DNA from: Alphaproteobacteria bacterium MarineAlpha12_Bin1
GTDB taxonomy: Bacteria; Pseudomonadota; Alphaproteobacteria; UBA6615
Direction: 5' to 3'
Assembly: GCA_002937505.1 (NCBI GenBank)
Contig: PTJY01000001.1
Span: 536,986-600,985 of the forward strand
DNA: 64,000 nt
Part shown: in pieces, positions 24,988 to 34,233 of the stretch
How the letters are laid out: each line of letters starts with the position of its first letter
Numbering within the stretch: the stretch's first letter is position 1
Program-made: the position numbers and the translations under genes
Notes under the pieces: model-generated
The model's input: only the letters and a program-made list of their open reading frames with translations
The model's database searches: none
Told to the model about the DNA's origin: nothing

Positions 24988-25626
24988 TTAAGTGGAATGT
25001 CTATTCCACCAACAATCGCACATAAAAGAAACATAGTCCGTCATCTTCAGGCTTTTAGATTTTGAAAAACGACTCATAACTAATGGTTCTTCTACTTCAA
25101 TTTGTAGGCCATCAGTAAACCGATTCCAAAAGTTAAACATACAGGAGACCATCGTTATTTCAACTATCTGTTCATTTGAAAAATGCTTCTTCAAATTTGG
25201 CATCGCCTGAGGATTTTCTCCTCTATAGGTCTTTTCAGTTAAAACCTCTGCCCACTTAATTGCTGCCTTTTCTGCAGGTGTAAACTTCTCAGAGTTTTCA
25301 AAATCATCTTCTAAATCAGCAATTAATTCCTCATCAAACCCTAACCCTCGACCGAGCGTTACATTATGAGAAATTCAGTATTTACAGCCATTAAGCATTG
25401 ACGTTTTTAGAATTACCAATGTTTTAATACGAATAGCAAGTTTGCCCGTTATTTCTTCTCTTAAAGCCGCCATAATAAATCCATAAATGGACTGAGCCAG
25501 TTTGGGAGAATGGGCTGCAACCCTCAACGCGTTTGCGACACGTCCAAACATCTTCTTTGAGTGTTTGAAGACGATTTGCGCTTCTGGACTAGCCTCTTCA
25601 TCAGAAATTAAAGGTAAATGAGCCAT
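24988..25626 (-). CDS. Carboxymuconolactone decarboxylase/AhpD-like protein, probable CxxU selenoprotein (in-frame UGA at 25377-25375)
   Basis: Read through, this is one 212-residue protein: 83 residues, a UGA codon at position 84, then 128 more residues in the same frame. The UGA falls in NGCKY-(UGA)-ISHN, the place where this alkylhydroperoxidase-like family has the second cysteine of its CxxC redox pair. The predicted motif is therefore Cys81-x-x-Sec84 with His87 nearby. The downstream part (LGRGLGFDEEL, FTPAEKAAIKWAEVLT, VSCMFNFWNRFTDGL) is intact and normal for the family. A hairpin suited to a bacterial SECIS follows the UGA. AhpD-like selenoproteins are known from marine metagenomes. 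The alternative is a Cys-to-stop nonsense mutation; the precise location and hairpin make that less likely. No sel genes are in the window. It lies 42 nt downstream of cobB on the same strand. Confidence 0.8.
25342..25361 (-). promoter_or_regulatory. Candidate bacterial SECIS element for Sec84
   Basis: Thirteen bases after the UGA the mRNA can form an 8-position stem, UAACGCUC with GAGGGUUA. It has seven Watson-Crick pairs and one G-G mismatch, and closes a GGUC tetraloop. The apical loop begins 21 nt after the UGA and starts with two G residues. Both features match the usual description of bacterial SECIS elements, with the loop about 16-37 nt downstream and a G within its first two positions. 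It lies wholly inside the coding sequence, as expected for bacteria. Confidence 0.65.
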
Positions 25627-32890: not shown

Positions 32891-33563
32891 GATGTCTCAT
32901 TTTCTTGAATTTAGTATGTAGATAGATGGGTGTTGCCATGTGTAATATAGGAGTTAGCAAATTATACTAAGATAAAGTAAACCGTAAGCAAATGTTTATA
33001 AATAAAAAAACCTTTATACTTATAGGAGAAAACACAATGGCGAGACAATTTAGACGAGTAGTAACAGGCCATAACTCGGAAGGTAAATCCATAATTTTAA
33101 TGGATGGGGCTCCACCACAAATTTTAGAACCAATGCCTCAGCTTTTTTCCCATGAAATCTGGGAAACTTCTGCTCCTGCAGATAACACGGGACAAACTGA
33201 TACGGCAATACGCGACCCTAGAATTGAACCCCATGATCCAGCTGGCACAATATTCCGTTATGTCGAGTTTCCTCCTGATGAGTTGCTTCAAGATGCGGAT
33301 GTAGCAGACGCTTTTGCCCAAATGGGTAGCAGTGACGCTCACGATTCTGATTCGGATGTAGCTGGAATGCATGAAACACAAACTACAGATTACGCAATTG
33401 TTTTAGAAGGTGAAATGTGGGCTGTGATGGAAGAAGGTGAAACGAAACTCTCTGCCAATGATGTTTTAATTCAGAGAGGCACCAACCATGCTTGGTCTAA
33501 CCGCTCAGGTAAGCCTGCTTTAATGCTCTTCGTTTTAATTGGAGCAAATAAAAGAACCTGATT
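32872..33563 (+). repeat. Tandem duplication, left copy (692 bp unit)
   Basis: This unit runs from GGTTTTT at 32872 to the base before the next GGTTTTT at 33564. It includes the first codons of the YciI gene, the intergenic region and a whole cupin gene. The right copy matches it, including the complete cupin gene, except for one base change (A32882 versus C33574) and about 30 bases missing after 33606. GGTTTTT occurs at both edges and the junction, which points to a short-homology tandem duplication. Confidence 0.9.
33037..33561 (+). CDS. Cupin-domain protein, copy 1 of an identical tandem pair
   Basis: The 174-residue protein has one cupin domain in its C-terminal half: MHETQTTDYAIVLEGEMWAVMEE (His and Glu of motif 1) and DVLIQRGTNHAWSNRS (motif 2, His). 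The N-terminal half has HEIWETSAPADNTG and FRYVEFPPDE, as in a family of cupins found in aromatic and terpenoid catabolic clusters. The start ATG 33037 is eight bases after AGGAG and is preferred over an in-frame ATG at 32992. The protein is identical to that of copy 2. The function is unknown. Confidence 0.88.
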   Translation: MARQFRRVVTGHNSEGKSIILMDGAPPQILEPMPQLFSHEIWETSAPADNTGQTDTAIRDPRIEPHDPAGTIFRYVEFPPDELLQDADVADAFAQMGSSDAHDSDSDVAGMHETQTTDYAIVLEGEMWAVMEEGETKLSANDVLIQRGTNHAWSNRSGKPALMLFVLIGANKRT

Positions 33564-34233
33564 GGTTTTTAGGCTCAATCATGATGTCTCATTTTCTTGA
33601 ATTTATTATTAGGAGTTAGCAAATTATACTAAGATAAAGTAAACCGTAAGCAAATGTTTATAAATAAAAAAACCTTTATACTTATAGGAGAAAACACAAT
33701 GGCGAGACAATTTAGACGAGTAGTAACAGGCCATAACTCGGAAGGTAAATCCATAATTTTAATGGATGGGGCTCCACCACAAATTTTAGAACCAATGCCT
33801 CAGCTTTTTTCCCATGAAATCTGGGAAACTTCTGCTCCTGCAGATAACACGGGACAAACTGATACGGCAATACGCGACCCTAGAATTGAACCCCATGATC
33901 CAGCTGGCACAATATTCCGTTATGTCGAGTTTCCTCCTGATGAGTTGCTTCAAGATGCGGATGTAGCAGACGCTTTTGCCCAAATGGGTAGCAGTGACGC
34001 TCACGATTCTGATTCGGATGTAGCTGGAATGCATGAAACACAAACTACAGATTACGCAATTGTTTTAGAAGGTGAAATGTGGGCTGTGATGGAAGAAGGT
34101 GAAACGAAACTCTCTGCCAATGATGTTTTAATTCAGAGAGGCACCAACCATGCTTGGTCTAACCGCTCAGGTAAGCCTGCTTTAATGCTCTTCGTTTTAA
34201 TTGGAGCAAATAAAAGAACCTGATTGGTTTTTT
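33564..34233 (+). repeat. Tandem duplication, right copy
   Basis: This copy begins at GGTTTTT (33564), repeats the YciI start region in truncated form, and then repeats the cupin gene without visible change. Compared with the left copy it lacks about 30 bases between 33606 and the AGGAGTTAGC element. It ends at GGTTTTTT (34226-34233), after which unique sequence resumes. The small differences argue against a pure assembly artefact. Confidence 0.88.
33699..34223 (+). CDS. Cupin-domain protein, copy 2 of an identical tandem pair
   Basis: This is a second, identical 174-residue cupin protein. The ribosome site and the 45 bases before the start are also the same as in copy 1. No synonymous changes were seen, so the duplication is recent or kept homogeneous by gene conversion. 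If copy 1 is transcribed, this copy probably gives extra gene dosage. It is followed after 43 nt by the arsenosugar-type glycosyltransferase. Confidence 0.88.
   Translation: MARQFRRVVTGHNSEGKSIILMDGAPPQILEPMPQLFSHEIWETSAPADNTGQTDTAIRDPRIEPHDPAGTIFRYVEFPPDELLQDADVADAFAQMGSSDAHDSDSDVAGMHETQTTDYAIVLEGEMWAVMEEGETKLSANDVLIQRGTNHAWSNRSGKPALMLFVLIGANKRT

Follow-up and report, generated by a model that had tools for sequence, protein, structure and literature searches.

Does an AhpD-like gene that is interrupted by UGA at its active site encode one full-length selenoprotein, or is it an ordinary gene that was broken at that codon or is decoded there in some other way? The question is raised by a locus on the minus strand of a stretch of 64,000 nucleotides from Alphaproteobacteria bacterium MarineAlpha12_Bin1 (the window), for which the original prediction had proposed a selenoprotein. 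Our analysis indicates that the gene almost certainly encodes one full-length AhpD-like selenoprotein with selenocysteine (Sec) at codon 84. This reading is adopted because the coding UGA, the conserved SECIS, the complete decoding machinery, the family and the motif were each shown by comparison.

Reading frame and selenocysteine machinery

The gene and the codon in question are the following.

24988..25626, minus strand: predicted gene for an AhpD-like selenoprotein of the CMD family, with 212 codons, a TAA stop and predicted Sec at codon 84
25375..25377, minus strand: UGA codon, putatively read as Sec, that supplies the second redox residue of C81-K-Y-U84; TGC stands there in five Cys homologues

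Translation of the coding strand (window:24988-25626, minus) with TGA read as U gave a frame of 212 residues, closed by TAA, in which UGA occurs once, at codon 84. The UGA lies in the context KTSMLNGCKY-U-ISHN. It was predicted to replace the second Cys of a CxxC motif, giving CxxU, and both the frame and the TGC aligned to it in the five Cys homologues agree with this. Likewise, the 128 codons 3' of the UGA were found to be open as foreseen (residues 85-212), and the downstream protein is conserved in orthologues. The mechanical list of open reading frames (ORFs) gives the front part only, 83 aa at 25375-25626 ending at the UGA; a plain ORF listing truncates the gene at its active site. Read through the UGA, the protein falls in the CMD/AhpD superfamily, scoring 35.1 bits against Pfam CMD (PF02627) where the gathering cut-off is 23. 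Its best NCBIfam match was the peroxidase-related enzyme family TIGR01926, at 55.2 bits over residues 3-177, which is below the curated cut-off of 81.8, and a Cys homologue (L034) likewise fell under this cut-off at 60.5 bits. UGA was regarded as a normal stop in this genome. In the window, TGA does terminate 10 of the 55 non-overlapping ORFs that reach 150 aa, and two tandem cupin genes have it as their stop.

The genome comprises 2.34 Mb in 12 contigs and is listed as 100% complete. Absence of the selenocysteine genes had been named as grounds for giving up the prediction; selA, selB, selC and selD are all present. Profile searches of this genome identified selB at 464 bits (cut-off 242), selA at 592 bits (above its cut-off) and a tRNA-Sec with anticodon UCA at 72.1 bits (cut-off 47). 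SelD was found as a domain of an oxidoreductase-SelD fusion, with 282 bits against a cut-off of 125 and with CGGC in the SelD part; the model TIGR04369 'fusion_not_SelD' scored 508 bits on this fusion, under its cut-off of 700. These four genes are clustered within 10 kb, over a stretch of about 8 kb, in C5:164000-180000. Ndh-SelD fusions, every one bearing CxxC, number in the hundreds in the Global Ocean Sampling (GOS) data according to the excerpt consulted of the 2008 study (PMC2398784). Adjoining the SelD fusion and tRNA-Sec genes is a candidate PrdB-like selenoprotein gene (L024:13432-14664, minus strand) with the motif UPQC and Sec154, which scored 118 bits against TIGR04483, under the cut-off of 300.

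In the mechanism proposed, SelA would convert Ser-tRNA-Sec to Sec-tRNA-Sec with selenophosphate from the SelD fusion. SelB would then attach to the hairpin with the GGUC loop that follows closely on the UGA and bring Sec to codon 84, and translation would run on for 128 codons past the UGA. Incorporation of Sec at this codon is thus put forward on genomic grounds.

The hairpin downstream of the UGA

25342..25361, minus strand: predicted bSECIS apical hairpin, UAAC-G-CUC / GAG-G-GUUA, with 7 pairs interrupted by one G.G mismatch
25350..25353, minus strand: GGUC apical loop, 21 nt after the UGA, invariant in 18 aligned Sec sequences

The hairpin reads UAACGCUC-GGUC-GAGGGUUA from 25361 to 25342, and its loop starts 21 nt after the UGA, in line with the claim that a hairpin with a GG-starting loop would be found at this distance. 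Minimum free energies (MFE) of -12.0 kcal/mol (48 nt, z = -1.8 against shuffles) and -16.3 kcal/mol (60 nt, z = -3.0) were calculated. The bSECIS consensus in the Fig. 2 legend of a 2026 review (PMC13188914) specifies a loop of 3-9 nt with G in the first two positions, an upper stem of 4-16 bp, a distance of 16-37 nt from the UGA and an MFE of at most -7.5 kcal/mol. The GGUC loop, the 7 pairs with one G.G mismatch, the 21-nt distance and both energies all lie within these bounds. As a control, the published rules were implemented by us and run over the 55 window ORFs, where 963 of 17336 codon positions (5.6%) and 0 of the 10 TGA stops passed. A bSECIS-like hairpin is weak evidence by itself because 5.6% of control positions pass, and the fold alone was therefore rejected as evidence for a SECIS. 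A search of the hairpin region against Rfam returned five matches, none at gathering score. When the own genome was searched with the exact hairpin as a pattern, the AhpD-like gene was the sole hit; the spacer in the pattern was one base too long and the match was counted with three mismatches.

It is conservation that lifts the hairpin above chance in these sequence comparisons. Across nine orthologues (8 distinct rows) 100% of stem cells were paired, versus 28.6-62.5% with slid partners, and the stem changes within this set were one-sided only. In the set of 18 Sec sequences (17 distinct), 99.2% of 119 cells were paired, versus 32.8-59.7% with slid partners, and two-sided changes that kept pairing occurred in 4 of the 7 pairs. 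The covariance check that had been proposed thus gave compensatory changes across 18 chosen Sec family members and one-sided changes in the nine orthologues. For the 18 sequences, the numbers of paired cells and of two-sided cells and the covariation score were each reached by 0 of 500 shuffles, although in such a test related sequences may score above their shuffles even where no structure exists. Two further measures were not unusual: 67 of 500 shuffles had at least as many pairs with two-sided change, and 265 of 500 at least as many pair types.

The 18-sequence set (A3) consists of the nine orthologues and nine paralogues (L064-L071 and L041) that were chosen for GGTC at the same spacing, and the choice of paralogues favours structure: the two-sided changes come from these nine additions, which were selected for the loop. 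L064-L071 were drawn from 19 fetched paralogue stretches. Excluded from A3 were L072, whose GGTC is placed alike but whose hairpin region does not pair in the A3 register, L073-L076, L081 and L008, which have a three-base GGC loop, and L063 and L077-L080, which were dropped by the filter (L078 and L079 have TGA only near their ends). In the five Cys homologues the stem is not kept, with 42.9% paired. Constraint was also seen at the codon level. Synonymous differences over codons 89-96 were 0.179 versus 0.534 overall, tied with two overlapping codon windows for the lowest of 202, and this value (17.9% of comparable pairs) was reached by 0 of 20000 random eight-codon sets.

The paralogues in A3 are further Sec-encoding AhpD-like genes of the bacterial family, in which the stems differ and the GGUC loop and its spacing are the same. 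In the paralogues with a GGC loop (L073-L076, L081 and L008), the loop lies one base nearer the UGA. One of these loci holds a tandem AhpD-like gene pair (L008:1192-1854 and L008:1-570, both minus, the latter cut at the locus end; G000 contig C5, ~88979-90832). Each of the two genes has its UGA in HCSY-U-GNVRSASAK, and they are identical over the stretch seen after the UGA. Between them lies a paralogue in which SEDSYSSG replaces the Cys/Sec motif.

Orthologues, Cys homologues and gene neighbourhood

Among 24 genomes of the same family, 13 genes in 11 genomes matched the protein at E 1e-40 or better. Nine orthologous genes, the own gene included, carry UGA at codon 84; they come from 8 of the 24 genomes and are 63-100% identical. 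The five nearest Cys homologues (55-57% identity), four from the same family (55-56%) and one from another family (G030, 56%), have TGC at this place. The expectation that homologues would carry either Cys or UGA at residue 84 therefore holds in every gene compared, with UGA there in all 9 Sec orthologues and Cys in all 5 nearest Cys homologues. The observation named beforehand as contrary to the prediction, TGC or TGT together with downstream decay in close relatives, was not made, UGA being kept in all nine genes of at least 63% identity. An extra TAA in the gene from G001 is that gene's own end. All 8 Sec genomes have selB and 7 of them have tRNA-Sec, which was not found in G022, a genome that is 84% complete and has the UGA gene.

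These data bear on two other explanations of the frame. One is that an ordinary CxxC AhpD gene was broken by a nonsense mutation or a sequencing error and that the downstream frame is a remnant. A single-base change would turn TGC, as present in the five nearest Cys homologues, into TGA; against this, UGA stands at codon 84 in nine of nine orthologous genes down to 63% identity, the downstream protein is conserved and the hairpin has been maintained. A nonsense mutation was rejected on the nine-fold conservation of the UGA, and we consider a broken gene highly improbable. The other is that UGA is decoded without Sec, by read-through or by general reassignment to Trp or another residue, as the frame, open with TGA as sense, would allow. 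Decoding of this kind hardly merits belief given the 10 of 55 window ORFs that end in TGA, the aligned residue of the relatives, which is Cys and not Trp, the complete set of sel genes and the constrained hairpin; general reassignment was rejected on the first two of these.

The four Cys-bearing genomes of the family (G004, G007, G016 and G022) also have selB, so the use of Cys in them is not explained by missing machinery, and Sec is not obligatory for the fold. A Cys-type relative in G022 (L061, G022:C73) has TGA at the place of the relatives' Trp codon and an in-frame TAG, and may for this reason be a pseudogene, damaged or mis-sequenced. A tree of 26 rows, built without Cys_G022 and Cys_G010p (excluded beforehand), L069 and Sec_G011a, contained three Sec/Cys changes, two of them forced by well-supported branches; no direction of change was drawn from it, as its branches are very long and its root is arbitrary. 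In an evenly drawn sample of the class, 5 of 385 genomes had a match at E 1e-45, four of which belong to the same family, the own genome included. A scan of viral contigs found no relative of the AhpD-like protein and no exact match to the hairpin, and all 318 plasmid records with a match held relatives of <60% identity only.

The original prediction had also placed the gene in a catabolic cluster beside a sirtuin. In the window the neighbours do include genes for a sirtuin, a LigB-type dioxygenase, cupins, a GST, an FAD enzyme and a luciferase-like monooxygenase; this setting does not extend to the family. In a comparison of 11 relatives (10-19 kb each), all 14 window neighbours asked for, the sirtuin included, were found in G002 (94% identity) and the sirtuin was common to this genome only. 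In G001, of the same genus, the luciferase-like gene was present with its first 34 residues only, at a contig edge and in another arrangement, and none of the other neighbours lay within 10 kb; the remaining nine neighbourhoods had at most distant cupins in common. The sirtuin/LigB/cupin neighbourhood is thus not a property of the gene family. Genes for a putative DctM-like transporter and for cupin-like and thiamine-diphosphate-enzyme-like proteins, named by inspection and not by family search, recurred around G005, G008 (second copy) and G023; the putative DctM-like family also occurs 7 kb from the first G008 copy. No paper joining AhpD-like, selenoprotein and sirtuin was found in the literature.

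The tandem cupin genes of the window (32992-33561 and 33654-34223, plus strand) do not differ anywhere in the coding sequence or in the stretch immediately upstream of it. As G002 has one copy in the stretch compared, either the gene was duplicated very recently or the assembly is at fault.

Chemistry and place among known systems

The place of Sec84 corresponds to the second Cys of the AhpD CxxC motif, Cys133 in Mycobacterium tuberculosis AhpD and Cys51 in the Pseudomonas aeruginosa AhpD-like protein PA0269. In AhpD, attack on the substrate is made by this second Cys. The excerpt consulted of one study (PMC3141380) equates Cys48/Cys51 of PA0269 with Cys130/Cys133 of M. tuberculosis AhpD, lists Cys48, Tyr50 and Cys51 as putative catalytic residues of PA0269 and gives Glu118, Cys130, His132, Cys133 and His137 as proton-relay residues of AhpD. 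In our alignment Cys130/Cys133 map to C81/U84, and the place of His132 is taken by Tyr83, as in PA0269, and by His in three Sec orthologues. From the alignment of C81/U84 with the NGCAYC motif of PA0269, together with attack by the second Cys, we infer a selenol/thiol peroxidase or a disulfide oxidoreductase. The C81-x-x-U84 motif would sit in an all-helical AhpD/CMD protein, with Sec84 as the attacking selenolate and Cys81 as its partner, acting on peroxide or in selenol/thiol-disulfide exchange. Peroxidase-type chemistry of this sort appears the most likely, and we favour it with some reserve, since function is taken from solved relatives that are 17-30% identical in structural alignments.

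A different proposal, which concerns the chemistry and not the Sec reading, is that the enzyme is a reductive dehalogenase or a similar catabolic enzyme like the debrominase Bmp8, in a ring-cleavage/organic-acid catabolic cluster. Bmp8 is a relative in sequence and fold, its GCMYCKSH aligning to GCKYUISH, and the LigB-type dioxygenase, cupins, GST, FAD enzyme and luciferase-like monooxygenase of the window, as well as the genes recurring around G005, G008 (second copy) and G023, fit such a setting. Nevertheless, PA0269 (62 bits) and the relative Atu0492 (59 bits) outscore Bmp8 (33.6 bits), the neighbourhoods vary between lineages and no gene pointing to a halogenated substrate was recognised. 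An AlphaFold model from five sequences was poor (mean pLDDT 60) and is unsuited to a comparison of pockets or to placing the C-terminal cysteines, and a Foldseek search with this model still ranked Atu0492, the P. aeruginosa AhpD-like protein and Bmp8 first. A dehalogenase is accordingly regarded as unlikely. No paper combining any two of Bmp8, debrominase and AhpD was found in the literature.

25006..25020, minus strand: C-terminal C203-D-C205-W-W motif (alignments A4 and A5)

Cys162 and Cys203 (VSC..., FMCDCWW) occur together in 6 of the 9 Sec orthologues; neither is present in the other three Sec genes or in the five close Cys homologues, and Cys205 is more widespread than either. The pair in the six orthologues may stem from one or few events. 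It is rather doubtful, more so than the dehalogenase itself, that the orthogroup is a distinct, unnamed Sec-dependent AhpD-like subfamily, in most members of which Cys162/Cys203 would form an additional thiol pair and resolve a selenenyl intermediate, and which would carry out a reductive catabolic reaction (e.g. Bmp8-like dehalogenation), not peroxide detoxification.

Compared with solved proteins, the selenoprotein resembles PA0269 (PDB 2o4d, 2ijc) in that NGCAYC of the latter aligns to NGCKYU; PA0269, however, has Cys in place of Sec, is 145 aa long and matches residues 65-177 only. Bmp8 (PDB 6ohi, 6ohj) is similar in length (195 aa) and fold, with GCMYC aligned to GCKYU, whereas it is a Cys form with 17% identity in the structural alignment, and debromination is known of Bmp8 and not of the present family. 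The YciW-related (seleno)protein family NF053654, whose NCBI name allows Sec and Cys forms, shares the superfamily; the present protein is not a member, as its 51.4 bits lie under the equivalog cut-off of 310.

Precedent for AhpD-like selenoproteins in marine metagenomes had been claimed, and is found in print. In the excerpts consulted, the 2005 Sargasso Sea survey describes AhpD-like CxxU selenoproteins with 27 sequences under COG2128 and names AACY01418594 as an AhpD-like sequence from there (PMC1088965), the 2008 GOS study has 299 and 70 sequences in two families (PMC2398784) and the 2026 review places AhpD-like proteins with CxxU under TIGR01926 (PMC13188914). As far as these excerpts describe it, the Sargasso/GOS AhpD-like 1 family (COG2128) shares with the present gene the CxxU motif, the AhpD superfamily, the occurrence in marine bacteria, a bSECIS after the UGA and TIGR01926 as best match; the score under the TIGR01926 cut-off sets the present protein apart from AhpD-like as listed there. 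Comparison with the 2005 and 2008 families, made by description, gives good support to the view that the gene is a further predicted case of the AhpD-like CxxU selenoproteins. Since this type has been in print since 2005, the gene is no new kind of system. In the excerpts consulted, no functional test of this abundant marine type was found. What the locus adds is a complete genomic setting for it: the full machinery is present, the SECIS is conserved across the orthogroup, and related genomes offer Sec and Cys forms that can be set side by side. In this way the question of why AhpD-like enzymes use Sec over Cys becomes directly testable.
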